A stretch of 64,000 nt of DNA from an uncultured Pseudokineococcus sp. (GTDB lineage: Bacteria; Actinomycetota; Actinomycetes; Actinomycetales; Quadrisphaeraceae): NCBI RefSeq assembly GCF_947499845.1, contig NZ_CANMPM010000002.1:248001-312000 (forward strand), in the 5' to 3' direction. The translations under genes and the position numbers were made by a program. The number at the start of each line of letters is the position of its first letter. Position 1 is the first letter of the stretch. Shown here one piece after another: positions 40,761-63,917 of this stretch. A model generated the notes under the pieces. The model saw only the letters and a list, made by a program, of their open reading frames with translations. It searched no databases and was not told the DNA's origin.

Positions 40761-40911
40761 CACGCGGAGGCGACGCCTCCTCCACCTCCCGGGGCTGCCA
40801 CGACGCGAAGCTGACGCCTCCTCCACCCCCCGGGCCCCCCACGACGCGAAGGTGACGCCTCCCTCACCCCCAGGGTCTCTCCCGGCGCGGAGGTGACGCC
40901 CCTTCGCCGGG
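40761..40911. repeat. About four imperfect ~40-bp tandem units after DUF3817
   Basis: Each unit contains a GCG(A/G)AG core followed by TGACGCCTCC-like sequence and a C-rich stretch; the units begin near 40761, 40799, 40840 and 40880. The second and third are most alike (CACGACGCGAAG starts both). The array lies between the DUF3817 stop and the helicase terminator. Confidence 0.75.
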
Positions 40912-40968: not shown

Positions 40969-42849
40969 TCAGCGGCCGGGCTGGTCCCGGTCGCGGCGCA
41001 CCATGGCCTTGCGGCCCTTGATCGTGCTGCCGCGCAGCGCCGCCACGACGTCGTCGGCGGCGAACTCGGGCACCTCGACGAGCGAGAAGCGCTCGGTGAT
41101 CTCGATGGCGCCGATGTCGCGGCCGCTCACGGGCGACTCGTTGGCGATGGCGCCCACGAGGTCGCCGGGGCGGACGCCGGCCGCGCGGCCGACGCCGACG
41201 AAGAGGCGGGCGTTGCCGGCCGACGGGCCGCTGCGGGGGCCGGAGCGGCCGCCACGGGCCGCGGGGCCCCGGCTGTCGCGCCCGTCCCGGCCGCGGGGGC
41301 CGCTGTCGCGACCGGCGCGGGGGCGCAGGTCGGGCGCCGGGATCTCCTGGTCGTCCACCGCGCCCTGGGCGGCGTGCGCCAGCTGGAGGGCCGCGAGCGC
41401 GACCTCCTCGGCGCTGTGGTGCTCCATGAGCGCGTCGAGGACCCCGCGGACCTCCTCGAGCCCGCTGCGGTCTCCGTCGAGCACCTCCGCGACCGAGCGA
41501 CGCGTCTCCTGCAGGCGGTGCGCCTTCAGGTCGGCGACGGTCGGCAGCGGCGCCACCGCGATCGGCGCGCCGCTGACGCGCTCGATGACCGAGAGCTGAC
41601 GACGCTCGCGCGGCTCGGCGAGCGTCAGGGCGACGCCCTCGCGTCCGGCGCGGCCGACGCGCCCGATGCGGTGCACGTAGGACTCGGGTGCCGACGGCAC
41701 GTCGAAGTTGACGACGTGGCTCAGCTGCTCGACGTCGAGGCCGCGCGCGGCCACGTCGGTGGCGATGAGGAGCTGGGCGGCGCCGGCGCGGAGCCGGGAG
41801 ACCACCTTGTCGCGCTGCTCCTGGCCCATGCCGCCGTGCAGCGCCTCGGCGCGGTAGCCGCGGGCGCCGAGCCGCTCGGTGATCGTGTCGACCTCCTCGC
41901 GCGTGCGGCAGAAGACGATGGCCGCCGTCGGCTGCTCGAGGTCGAGGATGCGGCCGAGGGCCGCGACCTTGTGCGGGCGGCCGACGACGTACGCCGTCTG
42001 GCGCACGAGCGGCGCCTCGCCCTCGGCCGCGCGCTTCCTCGCGATCCGGATGCGGACGGGCTCGCGCAGGTGCTGGCGGGCGATCCGGTCGATGCGCGGC
42101 GGCATCGTGGCGGAGAAGAGCACGGTCTGACGCTCCGCCGGGGCCGCCGAGAGGATCTCCTCGATGTCCTCGGCGAAGCCCATGTCGAGCATCTCGTCGG
42201 CCTCGTCGAGGACGACGGTCTGCAGGTGGGCCAGCGGCAGGGTGCCGCGGCCGATGTGGTCGAGCGCACGGCCCGGCGTCGCGACGACGACGTCGACGCC
42301 CCGCTCGAGCTCGCGCAGCTGGCGGCCGATCGGCGTGCCGCCGTAGACGGCGAGGACGCGGGCGCCCAGCTGCTTGCCGTAGGTGCTGATGGCCTCGGAG
42401 ACCTGGAGCGCGAGCTCGCGGGTGGGCACGAGGACGAGGCCGACAGGGCGGCGCCCGCCGCCGACGGGGACCTTCTCCAGCAGCGGAAGCGCGAAGGCGG
42501 CCGTCTTGCCGGTGCCCGTGGCGGCCTGGCCGAGCAGGTCGTGGCCGGCGAGGAGGGGGCGGATCGACTCCGCCTGGATGGGCGTGGGCTCCTCGTAGCC
42601 GAGGCCGTCGAGGGCGCGCAGCACCTCGGCGCGCAGGCCGAGGTCGGCGAAGGTCGGGCCGGCGGGCTCGTCGACGTCGTCCTCGGAAGCGGCGTCGTCC
42701 GCGCGGTCGGCCGCCGCCGCAGGGGCGTCCTCGCCGCGGCCCTGGGCGGGGACGTCGGCGCGGGGCGAACCCGTGTCGGTGTCGGTCTCGAGGTCGGTGG
42801 TGCGGTCCTCGGCGTCCGCGGTCTCGCGGTCGAGGGCAGGGGCGGTCAC
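40969..42849 (-). CDS. DEAD-box ATP-dependent RNA helicase with DbpA-type RNA-binding tail
   Basis: A 626-residue helicase. An acidic leader (~1-63) precedes the Q motif (FADLGLRAEVL through TPIQ). Motif I is AATGTGKT at 109-116, motif Ia PTRELA, motif II DEAD at 215-218, motif III SAT at 246-248 and motif VI HRIGRVGR at 393-400. After ~100 residues and an Arg/Gly-rich RGG-like patch, residues ~545-620 form the DbpA/CsdA C-terminal RNA-recognition fold (ARLFVGVGRAAGVRPGDLVGAIANE). It is a DeaD/CsdA-type enzyme that unwinds rRNA or mRNA structure. GTG at 42849 follows GAGGAG. A 468-bp gene-free region upstream suggests a long 5' leader, as known for cold-shock helicases. Confidence 0.94.
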   Translation of the reverse strand: MTAPALDRETADAEDRTTDLETDTDTGSPRADVPAQGRGEDAPAAAADRADDAASEDDVDEPAGPTFADLGLRAEVLRALDGLGYEEPTPIQAESIRPLLAGHDLLGQAATGTGKTAAFALPLLEKVPVGGGRRPVGLVLVPTRELALQVSEAISTYGKQLGARVLAVYGGTPIGRQLRELERGVDVVVATPGRALDHIGRGTLPLAHLQTVVLDEADEMLDMGFAEDIEEILSAAPAERQTVLFSATMPPRIDRIARQHLREPVRIRIARKRAAEGEAPLVRQTAYVVGRPHKVAALGRILDLEQPTAAIVFCRTREEVDTITERLGARGYRAEALHGGMGQEQRDKVVSRLRAGAAQLLIATDVAARGLDVEQLSHVVNFDVPSAPESYVHRIGRVGRAGREGVALTLAEPRERRQLSVIERVSGAPIAVAPLPTVADLKAHRLQETRRSVAEVLDGDRSGLEEVRGVLDALMEHHSAEEVALAALQLAHAAQGAVDDQEIPAPDLRPRAGRDSGPRGRDGRDSRGPAARGGRSGPRSGPSAGNARLFVGVGRAAGVRPGDLVGAIANESPVSGRDIGAIEITERFSLVEVPEFAADDVVAALRGSTIKGRKAMVRRDRDQPGR

Positions 42850-43317
42850 GGCAGGGGTCTCCTCGCGGTGGGGTCGGCGCGGCGTCGCGCCTGTCGGCAG
42901 GTCGCAGCCGGACTCGGTGGCTGCTGCGGAGGGGACCTGTCGGCCGTGGACCCTGTGGAGATCGCCAGCGGTTGTCACGTGCTCCTGCCCGCTCGTCGCG
43001 GGCTCACCTGCGCTGCTCGACCTGCGTCGGCCCCGTCCGGGCGCCCAGGGCGCCCGCTCCTCCGTCAGGCACAAGTGTGACGCACGCGCGGGCATTCCCC
43101 GACCACGGGCCACTCCCCCACCCGGTCGGCCCGTCGCCGTCCCGGGGAGCCCCTGCGCGCACCTCGTCGGCACATCGCCGTCCTGAGGGCGCCCCTCCGG
43201 CACTCTGACGACGACGTGCCGTCGAGACACCGTGAGGGGGGCACATCGACGACGGGGTGCCGTCGAGGAGGCCTGGTAGACGGCGATGTGACGACGAGGT
43301 GCGCTGGAGAGGCGGGC
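42850..43317 (-). other. Gene-free 468-bp region: helicase leader and inverted-repeat element
   Basis: No credible gene is seen. Next to the helicase is a likely long 5' leader with a GC hairpin (GGGCGCCC-A-GGGCGCCC, 43039-43055) and the only notable AT-richer patch near 43061-43085. Farther on, towards the acyl-CoA ligase stop at 43318, is the element at 43159-43302 with 24-bp terminal inverted repeats. Promoter hexamers are not clear. Confidence 0.6.
43159..43302. repeat. 144-bp element with 24-bp terminal inverted repeats
   Basis: The left end (43159-43182, beginning GCACCTCGTCG) is complementary to the right end (43279-43302) at 23 of 24 positions. Inside are two related direct copies containing GTGCCGTCGAG (43216 and 43257). 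No open reading frame or target-site duplication is visible. It lies between two same-strand genes. Confidence 0.85.
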
Positions 43318-44910
43318 TCAGGTCGCCGGGGTGGCGTCCCGGGTCTCGGCCGGGCCGGCGGGCGCGCCGTACCGGGCGACGAGCTCGCGCTTGAGGACCT
43401 TGCCGCTCGGGCCGAGGGGCAGGTCGTCGACCACCTCGATGCGGCGCGGGTACTTGTACGCCGCGATCTGGTCGGCGGCGTACTCGCGCAGCGCGTCGGC
43501 CGTCGTCGTCGCGCCCTCGACGAGGACGACGGCGGCCGCGACCTCCTCGCCGTGCCGCTCGTCGGCGACGCCGAACACCGCCACCCGGGCGACGTCGGGG
43601 TGCGCGGCGAGCACCTCCTCGACCTCGCGCGGGTACACGTTGTAGCCGTTGCGCAGGATCATGTCCTTGGTGCGGTCGACGATCGTCACGTAGTCGTCCT
43701 CGTCCTTGGTGCCGAGGTCGCCCGTGCGGAACCAGCCGTCGACGACGGCGGCCGCGGTGTCGTCCGGCCGCCCGAGGTAGCCCTTCATGAGGTTGTGCCC
43801 GCGGACGACGAGCTCGCCCATCTCCCCGCGCGGCAGCAGCTCGACCCGGTCGGGCACGTCGTGGCGGGCGACCTCGACCTCGACGCCCCAGATCGGCACG
43901 CCCACCGTGCCGGGGCGCGGCGGGCGGCCCACGGGGTTGAACGTCGCGACGGGCGAGGTCTCGGTGAGCCCGTACCCCTCGTGGATCTCCACGCCGAAGA
44001 CGTCGCGGAACCGGTCGATGACCGCCACCGGGATGGCCGCGCCCCCCGAGACGCCGTAGGCCAGCGGGGGCCGGCGCTCGTCCTTGGCCGCGGCCTCGAG
44101 GAACGCCATGTACATGGTCGGCACGCCCATGACGACGGTGCAGCCGTGCTCGACCATGAGCGACAGCGCCGTCGCCCCGTCGAACTTCGGCACGAGGACG
44201 AGCGTCGCGCCCGCGCGGAAGGTGATGTTCATGGCGCAGGTCTGCCCGAAGGTGTGGAACAGCGGCAGGCACCCGAGGACGACGTCGTCCACGCCCATGC
44301 GGAAGGTGTCGAGCAGCGAGGTCTCCACCTGCGACACCAGCGACAGGTGGCAGCCCTCGGCGCCCTTGGGACGGCCGGTGGTGCCGCTCGTGTAGAGGAT
44401 CGTCGCGGTGTCGTCGGGCCGGCGCGGCTCGACGGCGGTGATCGGCTCCGCCGCCGCGGCCAGCTCCTCGAGCCGCTCGACGCCGTGCTCGGCGGCCAGC
44501 TCGGCCGGCGCCAGGACGGTGACGACGTCGACCCCGGCGGCGCGCGCGCCGCGCAGGCCCTGGGCCATGAGGGGGGCGGCGCACACGAGCAGCGAGGCCT
44601 CGCTGTCCTCGAGGACGTACTGGATCTCCGGCCCCTGGAGCAGGGCGTGCACGGGCACGACGACGCCGCCCAGCGCCAGGACGGCGTAGTAGGCCCGCGG
44701 GAAGTCGGCGACGTTGGGCAGCAGCAGCGCCACCCGCGTCCCCGGGCCGACGCCCTTGGCGCGCAGGGCGCCGGCGACGGCGCGCGTCTGGTCCCAGAGC
44801 TCGCGGTAGGTGATCCGCTGGTCGCCCACGACGACGGCCGTGCGGTCGGCGTGCCGGACCGCGGACTCGGCGAGGATGGTGGCGACGGACAGCGTGGCGA
44901 AGCCCTGCAT
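43318..44910 (-). CDS. Long-chain acyl-CoA synthetase / AMP-dependent ligase
   Basis: A 530-residue ANL-superfamily enzyme. The AMP-binding loop YTSGTTGRPKG is at 173-183; other core motifs are GYGLTETSPV (A5), WFRTGDLGTKDEDDYVTIVDRTKDMI (A7-A8) and the C-terminal catalytic Lys in GPSGKVLKREL. It activates a carboxylic acid, probably a fatty acid, through an acyl-adenylate to a CoA thioester; chain length cannot be read. The ATG at 44910 has GGGAG seven bases upstream, and TACTGT (44962-44967, minus strand) may be its -10. It stands alone, so it does not reveal a pathway. Confidence 0.92.
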   Translation of the reverse strand: MQGFATLSVATILAESAVRHADRTAVVVGDQRITYRELWDQTRAVAGALRAKGVGPGTRVALLLPNVADFPRAYYAVLALGGVVVPVHALLQGPEIQYVLEDSEASLLVCAAPLMAQGLRGARAAGVDVVTVLAPAELAAEHGVERLEELAAAAEPITAVEPRRPDDTATILYTSGTTGRPKGAEGCHLSLVSQVETSLLDTFRMGVDDVVLGCLPLFHTFGQTCAMNITFRAGATLVLVPKFDGATALSLMVEHGCTVVMGVPTMYMAFLEAAAKDERRPPLAYGVSGGAAIPVAVIDRFRDVFGVEIHEGYGLTETSPVATFNPVGRPPRPGTVGVPIWGVEVEVARHDVPDRVELLPRGEMGELVVRGHNLMKGYLGRPDDTAAAVVDGWFRTGDLGTKDEDDYVTIVDRTKDMILRNGYNVYPREVEEVLAAHPDVARVAVFGVADERHGEEVAAAVVLVEGATTTADALREYAADQIAAYKYPRRIEVVDDLPLGPSGKVLKRELVARYGAPAGPAETRDATPAT

Positions 44911-47576: not shown

Positions 47577-47723
47577 GGGGCGATGTGTGGCCATGTCGCC
47601 CTCCCCACCCACCCCCAGGGCGATGTGTGGCCATGTCGCCCCACCCACCTCCCCGGCAGGGCCTTGTGTGGCCATGTCGCCCTGCGAGGGCTCGCGGGAG
47701 GGGCGACATGGCCACACGTCGCC
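47577..47723. repeat. Four copies of a ~22-bp quasi-palindrome
   Basis: GGCGATGTGTGGCCATGTCG begins the copies at 47579 and 47619. A third, starting GCCTTGTGTGGCCATG, is at 47661. A fourth, inverted copy is at 47702-47723 with one mismatch. All share the TGTGGCCATGTCGCC core, which is itself partly palindromic around TGGCCA. They lie between the exonuclease stop and the promoter of the membrane-protein/ABC operon. Confidence 0.9.
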
Positions 47724-47759
47724 GTGGGGCGACGCTGGGCGCCCCAGAGCCTTGCGGCC

Positions 47760-52602: not shown

Positions 52603-52672
52603 GGGCGAGCAGGCGACGACTCGCCCCCGACGACGTCCCTCCCAGGGCGAGCAGGCGACGACTCGCCCTGGG
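52603..52672. terminator. Two tandem hairpins with the same loop between convergent genes
   Basis: Hairpin 1: GGGCGAG (52603-52609) with CTCGCCC (52620-52626). Hairpin 2: 11-bp stem (52641-52651 with 52662-52672). Both loops read CAGGCGACGA. They serve as a bidirectional terminator between ggt and the zinc-ribbon gene. Confidence 0.8.
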
Positions 52673-61871: not shown

Positions 61872-63917
61872 GTGTCCACTGACGAGAACGGCGCTCGACC
61901 GGACGACGCCCCGAGGGGGAGGGGCGGCGCCCTCCGCCGGTCGGTGCGGCGGACCGAGGGGGCGCTGTCCAGCCTCGACTACCGGGTGCCGAAGTACCCG
62001 CACGACACCCACCCGGCCCTCGTGCCCGGGATCAGCATCGACGAGCAGCGACGCCGCTACCGCGTCTCGCGGTTCGTGCTCGCCGTCGCGGGCACCCTCA
62101 CCGTCGCCTTCGTCGTCTGGGGGGTCACCTCGCCCGAGACGGTGGCGAGCGCCGCGCAGGCCGCCTACGACTGGGCGACCACCAACCTCGGGTGGATGTT
62201 CAACCTCGTCGCGGTGGTCGTCCTCGTGGCGCTCCTCGGCATCGCCCTGTCGCCGTACGGGAAGATCCCGCTGGGCAAGGAGGGCGAGGAGCCCGAGTTC
62301 GGCACCTTCTCCTGGACCGCGATGCTCTTCGCGGCCGGCCTGGGCGTCGCCGTCCTCTTCTGGGGCCCCGCGGAGCCGCTGACGTACTTCATCACGCCGC
62401 CGCCGCTGACCAACGACGCCGAGACCGTCGACGCCCTGCACTACGCCTTCGCGCAGACCTACTTCCACTGGGGCTTCCACGCGTGGGCGATCTACGCCGT
62501 CATCGGCGGGGCCGTGGGCTACGTCGCCTACCGCCGCGGGCGCCCGCTGCTCGTGTCGTCCGTATTCCGCTCGCTGTTCGGCGCGAGGGCCACCGACGGC
62601 GTCGCGGGCAAGCTCGTCGACGTCTTCGCCATCGTCGCGACGCTCTTCGGCACCGCCGCGGCGCTCGGGATCGCCGCGCTGCAGATCGGCTCCGGCGTCA
62701 GCATCGTGTCCGGCAGCGGCCCGGTGACGAACACCGTGCTCGTCGCGATCATCGCCGTCCTCACGGCGTGCTTCATCGTCTCGGCCGTCTCGGGCGTCGC
62801 CCGGGGCATCCGCTACCTGTCGAACACGAACATCCTGCTGACGGTCGGGATGCTCCTGGTCGTGGTGGTCCTCGGCCCCACGCTCTTCCTGCTCAACCTC
62901 GTGCCGTCGGCGATCATGGAGTACCTCGGGTCCCTGTTCGACCTCATGGGGCGCTCGCTGTCCTGGGGCGAGGAGACGCAGGCCTTCCAGTCGACGTGGA
63001 CCGTCTACTACTGGGCCTGGTGGATCTCCTGGGCGCCGTTCGTCGGGATCTTCATCGCGCGCATCTCCCGCGGCCGCAGCATCCGCCAGTTCCTCCTCGG
63101 CACGATCTTCATCCCCTCCGCGCTGATCTTCGTCGCGTACGGCGTCATGGGCGGCACGGCCATCTCGATGTACCGGAGCGGCGCCCCCGGCTTCTCCGAC
63201 GACATGGCGGCGCCGGAGGTGCTCTTCGCCCTGCTCGACAACCTGCCCGCGGTGGCGGGCTGGATTCCCTTCGTCGCCATGGCGATCCTCGCCATCTTCT
63301 TCATCACCGCGGCGGACTCCGCCTCGATCGTCATGGGCATGCTCAGCACCGGCGGCTCGCAGACCCCGCCGCGGCCGCTGGTGATCTTCTGGGGCCTCGT
63401 CATGGCCGGCATCGCGGTGGTGATGCTCACGCTCGGCGAGGGCGTGGCGCTGCAGGGCCTGCAGCAGCTCGTCATCGTCACGGCCGTGCCGTTCGCCCTG
63501 GTGCTCCTCCTGGCCGTCGTCGCCTGGTTCAAGGAGCTGCGGACCGACCCCATCGCCCTGCGCCAGCAGTACACGCGCTCGGCGCTCGACAACGCCGTGA
63601 CCGACGGCATCGAGCGCTACGGCGACGACTTCGCGGTGCAGGTCACCCGCAGCGAGCACGACCGCGGGGCGGGCGCGGACGTCGACTCCACCAGCGCCGA
63701 GTACACCGAGTGGTACCAGCGGCGCGACGAGGACGGCGAGCCCGTGGGCTACGACTTCTCCACGGGCGAGTGGGCCGACGGCTACCGCGATCGCGCGGAG
63801 GCGGACGGGTCCTCCACGGCGGACGGCTCCTCTCCCGACGGGGCCTACGGCGAGGTGCCGGACGGGGCACGGGGCGGCGACGGAGCTGCGCCGCGGCCGG
63901 AGGTACGGCGGTCCTGA
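61872..63917 (+). CDS. BCCT-family betaine/choline/carnitine transporter
   Basis: A 681-residue secondary transporter with 12 spans. The hydrophilic head (~1-70) is followed by VLAVAGTLTVAFVVWGVTSPE. The BCCT signature region STWTVYYWAWWISWAPFVGIFIARISRGRSIRQF is complete, with the aromatic box around Trp381; FSWTAMLFAAGLGVAVLFWGPAEPLTYF and ADSASIVMGML are also typical. The ~130-residue acidic C-terminal tail (EYTEWYQRRDEDGEPVGYDF) probably senses osmotic state. It imports compatible solutes such as glycine betaine. GTG start with GAGAGG seven bases upstream and TACTCT (61832-61837) as possible -10. Confidence 0.95.
   Translation: MSTDENGARPDDAPRGRGGALRRSVRRTEGALSSLDYRVPKYPHDTHPALVPGISIDEQRRRYRVSRFVLAVAGTLTVAFVVWGVTSPETVASAAQAAYDWATTNLGWMFNLVAVVVLVALLGIALSPYGKIPLGKEGEEPEFGTFSWTAMLFAAGLGVAVLFWGPAEPLTYFITPPPLTNDAETVDALHYAFAQTYFHWGFHAWAIYAVIGGAVGYVAYRRGRPLLVSSVFRSLFGARATDGVAGKLVDVFAIVATLFGTAAALGIAALQIGSGVSIVSGSGPVTNTVLVAIIAVLTACFIVSAVSGVARGIRYLSNTNILLTVGMLLVVVVLGPTLFLLNLVPSAIMEYLGSLFDLMGRSLSWGEETQAFQSTWTVYYWAWWISWAPFVGIFIARISRGRSIRQFLLGTIFIPSALIFVAYGVMGGTAISMYRSGAPGFSDDMAAPEVLFALLDNLPAVAGWIPFVAMAILAIFFITAADSASIVMGMLSTGGSQTPPRPLVIFWGLVMAGIAVVMLTLGEGVALQGLQQLVIVTAVPFALVLLLAVVAWFKELRTDPIALRQQYTRSALDNAVTDGIERYGDDFAVQVTRSEHDRGAGADVDSTSAEYTEWYQRRDEDGEPVGYDFSTGEWADGYRDRAEADGSSTADGSSPDGAYGEVPDGARGGDGAAPRPEVRRS

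Follow-up and report, generated by a model that had tools for sequence, protein, structure and literature searches.

The bacterial interspersed mosaic elements (BIMEs) of Escherichia coli are known for their links to gyrase and IHF. The available part of Di Nocera et al. (2013; PMC3733652) describes BIMEs as mosaic clusters of repetitive extragenic palindromic (REP) sequences, and the REPs of the GTAG and CGTC super-families as partly palindromic intergenic sequences of 20–40 bp that occur as several families per genome and favour convergent and co-directional genes and downstream positions; the phyla listed there for GTAG/CGTC REPs exclude Actinobacteria. For Beggiatoaceae, the available part of another report (PMC4679880) describes genome-wide intergenic direct repeats of the sequence TAACTGA, with a proposed regulatory role. 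Here, we analyzed a 64,000-nt stretch of the genome of an uncultured Pseudokineococcus sp. (RefSeq assembly GCF_947499845.1, contig NZ_CANMPM010000002.1, positions 248,001–312,000; hereafter, the window) and focused on an inverted repeat upstream of a DEAD-box RNA helicase gene, which proved to be part of an array of short units at positions 43118–43302 of the window.

Such arrays are modular, share one step and one polarity, lie at gene ends, turn over mainly module by module, and can belong to different families at one site. They are REP/BIME-like and not miniature inverted-repeat transposable elements (MITEs), and the shared step and polarity are their unusual part. We tentatively favour the explanation that the site, with its five units, belongs to a REP-like system specific to the genus, the grid of which may be kept by a putative DNA-binding factor at gene ends.

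Our comparisons with the described systems refer to the parts of the sources named above. Like GTAG/CGTC REPs, the arrays consist of short, partly dyad-symmetric intergenic units of several families placed at gene ends. Unlike in those REPs, head-to-tail pairs dominate (112 direct and 16 opposed pairs) on one step, no Y1/RAYT domain was found, and no consensus has a GTAG end. The Y1/RAYT transposase profile PF01797 had no match in any of 12 genomes, among them the four available for the genus (that of the window is a draft with a completeness of 97.55), whereas 5 of 14 control genomes were positive. The arrays resemble E. coli BIMEs in their clustered short dyad units at gene ends and in possible DNA-level binding roles, but differ in placing several families on one 41-bp step with a single orientation switch and constant polarity. 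The TAACTGA repeats are likewise a genome-wide intergenic direct-repeat set; they are seven-base repeats of one sequence, whereas several longer families occupy a 41-bp grid here. Literature searches in open-licence papers retrieved no description of these Pseudokineococcus repeats.

Array structure at the inverted repeat

The original prediction had described a mobile-element-like unit of 144 bp at 43159–43302, with 24-bp terminal inverted repeats, a diverged direct repeat inside and no gene. The repeat search recovered the inverted repeat with arms of 26 nt (43157–43182 and 43279–43304; 25/26 positions or 96% complementary) separated by 96 nt. The arm pattern occurred, with up to three mismatches, at these two places only in the whole window (expected number, 0.00; 100 shuffles). 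The direct repeat was found as three copies starting at 43198, 43239, and 43281, with steps of 41 and 42, and codon-usage gene prediction placed no gene inside. The fixed boundaries, by contrast, did not hold. Exactly 41 bp to the left of the unit at 43159 lies a decayed unit (43118–43138) identical to it at 16 of 21 positions, compared with a mean of 7.6 and a maximum of 14 among 2000 shuffles; the 144-bp limits are thus arbitrary. Together with the unit at 43159, the three direct-repeat copies and the decayed unit therefore define an array of about five units rather than an element with two special ends.

The array at 43118–43302 comprises approximately five units of ~21 nt at ~41-bp steps in the orientation + + − − −. 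The decayed unit (43118–43138, plus strand) is a direct repeat of the second unit, the left arm of the inverted repeat (43159–43179, plus strand). The third lies at 43199–43219 (minus strand). The fourth (43241–43261, minus strand) is diverged and falls below the matrix threshold, with 77% identity to the reference copy of the direct repeat. The fifth (43282–43302, minus strand) is the right arm of the inverted repeat. All belong to the sequence family designated family I below.

A MITE, which would be moved by a transposase recognising the 24-bp ends, was one of the two shapes originally suggested. The near-perfect inverted repeat and the absence of arrays at some orthologous sites agree with it. 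However, the supposed ends are opposed units that form the two outer parts of an array built from modules, many arrays contain direct units only and have no inverted ends, and length varies by steps of ~41 bp instead of being fixed between terminal inverted repeats. As before, no target duplication was apparent; some orthologous sites lack an array, but their flanks are too diverged for junctions or target duplications to be read. The phage and plasmid databases gave no match to positions 43140–43320. We rejected the MITE reading, which we regard as very improbable, on the grounds of modular lengths and of ends that are themselves array units. The REP/BIME part of the suggestion stood: many short, partly dyad-symmetric copies are dispersed over intergenic regions, as expected of a REP. 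The same-genome search that had been proposed gave 60 matches for a 161-bp stretch at E ≤ 10, self and reverse-strand matches included, so that the site is neither a single copy nor one with ends unlike any other locus.

RNA folding of 43150–43310 gave z-scores of −7.80 and −8.23 for the two strands, far beyond shuffled sequences. In Rfam, positions 42500–44000 had two matches only, both to microRNA precursors and far below the gathering thresholds (37.1 of 268 and 20.5 of 84 bits), which we take as chance fits to the long hairpin.

Repeat families with a common step and polarity

We compared four genomes of the genus, namely the window genome (G000), two that we take to be those of Pseudokineococcus marinus (G001) and of an uncultured Pseudokineococcus (G003), and a fourth (G002). 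Within G000, arrays were surveyed in contigs C2 (361,514 bp), C3, and C23 and the first 400 kb of C1, together 1,136,776 bases or 31% of the genome. Families were selected on C2 by a screen for self-similarity at lags of 40–42 bp, a procedure that families with other steps could escape. This screen yielded 28 clusters, most of which fell into five families and some of which had no clear family. Since the families came from this screen, spacing on C2 is pre-selected, and fair evidence comes from the test contigs and the lag scans. The sample contained 68 clusters in the five sequence families, 45 of them with at least two units. The units are 21–24 nt long, with the consensus sequences GCAC-TCGTCG-CA--TCGCC (family I), GGGCGAGTCGTCGCCTGTTCGCCC (family II), GGGCGAYGTGTGGCCATGTCGCCC (family III), GCGAAGGTGACGCCTCCTTCACC (family IV), and CGGACTTCGTAGCCTTCTTCCGC (family V). 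The GTAG tag is absent from the consensus and flanks of all five; family I units are mostly followed by gtcc, which makes CGTC there, and families II–V have no such tag.

Matrices trained on C2 were applied without a spacing rule to C1 (400 kb), C3, and C23. With C2 included, 112 pairs of direct neighbours lay less than 70 bp apart, of which 12 had a step of 40 bp, 71 of 41 bp, 28 of 42 bp, and a single pair of 38 bp. On the contigs unused for training, 60 of 61 direct pairs were at 40–42 bp. Among the matches listed for families I–IV in G001, in G003, and in G000 outside the sampled contigs, isolated matches left out, the same held for 167 of 174 direct pairs. Opposed neighbours always faced each other (+,−): this was the case in all 16 pairs of the sampled contigs, with start-to-start distances of 39–42 bp, and, among the matches listed, in 22/22 opposed neighbours less than 130 bp apart, although some G001 loci are orthologous to those of G000 and not all are independent. 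Opposed pairs occurred in families I, III, and IV only, and the family V arrays of the sample were direct only.

The step also emerged without any assumed sequence. Intergenic self-similarity on C2 was found at 6, 16, and 11 places for lags of 40, 41, and 42 bp, with harmonics at 81–84 and 122–126 bp, compared with at most 3 places for each other lag between 20 and 80 bp; the genic counts at lags 40, 41, and 42 were 0, 0, and 5. In three genomes of the genus, a peak at 40–42 bp was present in 56/581, 21/395, and 11/167 intergenic regions, compared with 5, 5, and 3 regions at control lags of 44–46 bp and 17, 11, and 3 at 36–38 bp. Between arrays, spacers were near random in sequence (identity 0.44–0.50 vs. 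0.43 when shuffled), though their length is fixed. The arrays differ from clustered regularly interspaced short palindromic repeat (CRISPR) arrays in that units diverge and can be opposed in one array and spacers are alike; cas genes were not part of the search.

Gene-end location and change between species

The location test covered 42 arrays, after exclusion of one at the edge of a contig and of two that lie within predicted reading frames. Gene calls here and elsewhere came from our own codon-usage script rather than a standard gene finder. Arrays were over-represented between convergent genes (14/42 vs. 77/581 intergenic regions of at least 60 bp; p 0.0004) and under-represented between divergent genes (3/42 vs. 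132/581; p 0.012). For 21 of the 25 arrays between co-directional genes, the closer gene end was the 3′ end of the gene upstream (p 0.0009).

Such placement, behind genes and between convergent ones, would suit RNA-level elements, in which transcribed hairpins terminate transcription or serve to protect mRNA, working in either direction. Folding is consistent with this in part: besides the strong fold of the window's array, single units of families III (z −4.4) and IV (z −3.2) fold well and those of family II moderately (z −1.8), the dyad arms being clear in these three families and weak in I and V. Compensated changes between arms, expected of a conserved dyad or hairpin, were detected in family IV only (8 cells, reached by 1 of 2000 shuffles). 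However, single units of families I and V fold no better than shuffles, family V is direct only in the sample, and hairpins require no fixed 41-bp step. Moreover, 9 of 39 array regions had another strong hairpin beyond the limits of the array, compared with 115 of 410 similar regions that lack arrays (co-directional, 4/25 vs. 85/347; convergent, 5/14 vs. 30/63), and, as we read the positions, 8 of these 9 hairpins lie between the stop codon of a flanking gene and the array. Orientation also has no tie to gene direction; a rule that units are sense to the upstream gene was rejected, as orientations showed no consistent relation. We therefore consider action at the RNA level unlikely. A link of orientation to replication was dropped as well, since GC skew and gene strand bias set beside array orientation gave no clear pattern. 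On C2, family IV arrays are mainly in plus orientation (six of six) and family II arrays in minus orientation in 3 of 4; elsewhere, orientations are mixed.

A family I array (+ − − −, steps 41, 42, and 42) was found inside a long reading frame (G000:C2:184210–184358; L120:4210–4358). The frame (2549–8761 of L120, minus strand, 2070 aa), which we take to resemble a fused pair of CydDC-type ABC-transporter subunits, translates the array as repeats like FVDTSPSGGASSGH.

An array occupies the window's own site in three species. It has one 42-bp module fewer in P. marinus and three units of different sequence in G003. On C1, one family III array comprises 4 units in the window genome vs. 3 in P. 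marinus and another 7 vs. 5, and the spacers of each species are homogenised. Comparison of 65 orthologous intergenic pairs between G000 and G003 gave arrays in both for 5, in G000 only for 7 (3 of these on the lag score as the sole basis), in G003 only for 3, and in neither for 50; among 40 pairs with G002, the corresponding numbers were 2, 2, 5 (G002 only), and 31. The five sites shared with G003 included two with different families (IV vs. I and V vs. I) and three with family I in both. The site C2:232107 carries family III in G000, a II-like palindrome family in G002, and no array in G003. Retention of sites between G000 and G003 appeared to exceed chance (Fisher p 0.004), an idea that we rejected after stratification by gene orientation (p 0.074).

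Families I–IV are near background beyond the genus; family V was searched on the sampled contigs only. Family I matches (up to 1 mismatch) numbered 36 in G000, 23 in G001, 3 in G002, and 32 in G003, with none for a reversed control in G000. In 55 other genomes, there were 0–3 per genome, with 0–2 for controls, so that the G002 count is itself near background. Family II (2 mismatches) had 41, 56, 0, and 20 matches in G000 to G003, and family III (2 mismatches) 109, 53, 9, and 1, neither of them with any match in 8 other genomes. For family IV (3 mismatches; 107, 28, 3, and 6), one place was found in the 8 others and one match for the control. The 41-bp signal without assumed sequence was also present in G002 and G003. 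It was lacking in 200-kb samples of two genomes from other genera of the family, with 2 places at lag 42 in G006.

Other repeats were found outside the genus. At two loci (G004:C1:36772–37113 and 62940–63269; L150 and L152), G004, from another genus of the family, contains its own REP-like palindrome, CTGACCGAGGTCAC, at spacings of 22, 50, and 53, as well as a second repeat with CATGATCACGG. G006 contains a long CRISPR array with a period of ~61 bp at C1:12478–15281 (L159). The idea that the periods of different genera (41, 50, and 61) form a series of helical turns was consequently dropped: the 61-bp period is that of the CRISPR array, and the 22/50/53 signal of G004 comes from another palindrome.

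Neighbouring genes and further arrays of the window

The array lies in the 3′ flank of an acyl-CoA synthetase/ligase gene (AMP-binding by Pfam; 43318–44910, minus strand), 15 bp downstream of its stop codon. The ligase protein is 98% identical to that of P. marinus and 91% to that of an uncultured Pseudokineococcus. On the other side, the array is ~270–450 bp upstream of the start of the DEAD-box RNA helicase gene (40969–42849, minus strand; Pfam DEAD, Helicase_C, and DbpA), as originally described. The proposed link to the helicase leader fared less well. The conserved upstream/leader block defined by alignments (42850–43085, minus strand) adjoins the array without including it, with 236/236 positions identical in P. 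marinus and 212/228 in G003. For the array at the same locus, 107/126 and 98/178 aligned columns were identical, respectively; the array thus falls outside the strongly conserved leader. A helicase-specific structure, either an autoregulatory RNA or a cruciform, would agree with the upstream position, the strong fold, and the presence of an array in three species. It is nonetheless highly improbable, as arrays of the same family lie behind many unrelated genes, the conserved leader stops short of the array, and the number and sequence of units at the site vary by species.

The leader block itself is unusually conserved, its complete identity to P. marinus comparing with ~95% in neighbouring DNA. 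Among 59 genomes, it had no match in G002 and short weak matches only elsewhere, and its RNA fold was no better than that of shuffles (z 0.05).

The window contains one array each of families I, II, III, and IV. The family IV array (40764–40869, plus strand; C2:288764–288869) lies between convergent genes and has three units above the threshold and a fourth at a looser threshold. The family III array (47578–47724; C2:295578–295724) consists of four units (+ + + −), as many as its counterpart in P. marinus, one step being 40 vs. 42. The family II array (52603–52668, minus strand; C2:300603–300668) has two units. A segment of ~2.07 kb that is absent from the aligned P. marinus contig (50597–52666; G000:C2:298597–300666) ends at this array, and G003 has the flanking genes without the array.

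Origin of the shared geometry

The explanation that we tentatively favour would involve two processes. Modules may be copied in place through tandem duplication, at times in opposed orientation, and the grid, which corresponds to approximately four helical turns and extends over both orientations, may be maintained by a putative factor contacting successive units on one helix face. Such a factor at gene ends could act as a boundary, for example, by pinning DNA or by preventing read-through where genes converge. A DNA-bound factor is favoured because the step is maintained in opposed units and the spacer length in spite of divergence, because single units of families I and V form no stable hairpin, and because some arrays lie beyond terminator-like hairpins. 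The 39–42 bp step in opposed pairs, in particular, is what simple slippage would not give.

The principal alternative is that the arrays are neutral or selfish repeats with no bound factor, all descended from a single ancestral 41-bp module and expanded through slippage or unequal crossing-over, with the step simply inherited and arrays persisting behind genes, where they are least harmful. Several observations are in its favour and count against a bound factor. Families I, II, and III resemble one another (p 0.006, 0.006, and below 0.002), and the values for family V are borderline against I and II (0.068 and 0.072) but not against III (0.22); given these relations, much can be explained if the step was inherited from a single ancestral module. 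Neighbouring spacers within arrays are alike (0.66), as plain duplication predicts. Other points that sit poorly with a maintained grid are the 38-bp exception among the direct pairs, the steps of 29, 29, 39, 43, 43, 51, and 51 among the matches listed, the extra gap of 17 bp at the window's own site in P. marinus, which is no module, the lack of compensated arm changes in families I, II, III, and V, and the fact that units are not consistently sense to any gene. The unit numbers that vary in close species and the spacers homogenised within species likewise suit neutral turnover, as does the finding that units are more alike within than between arrays in families III and IV (0 and 5 of 1000 permutations).

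However, such likeness was not significant for families I, II, and V, and no clear link emerged between family IV and I or III (p 0.39 and 0.42), its values against II and V being borderline (0.054 and 0.09). Judged from the sequences, a very old common origin of all families is conceivable. Diverged spacers nevertheless retain their length, and opposed units hold both the step and a single polarity, which duplication alone does not explain. We regard purely neutral repeats as possible but somewhat doubtful.

A further proposition, which we put forward as rather speculative, is that Pseudokineococcus has a genome-wide system of gene-end boundary arrays, in which geometry is conserved rather than sequence: units from different families, some of them apparently unrelated, would stand about four helical turns apart, with opposed units facing each other and families being exchangeable at a site while the geometry stays. 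If so, the factor or the array-building enzyme would read spacing and unit symmetry and not one sequence.

REP-like repeats are a long-standing puzzle, as they are common and located mostly at gene ends, and their function is disputed. The repeats described here come from an actinobacterium, no match to the usual transposase domain was found, and several families that can replace one another at a site follow one rule of spacing and orientation. If this rule stems from a bound protein, it would provide a handle for testing repeat function, by shifting the step by half a turn; if it stems from the copying process, it would tell how such repeats arise.
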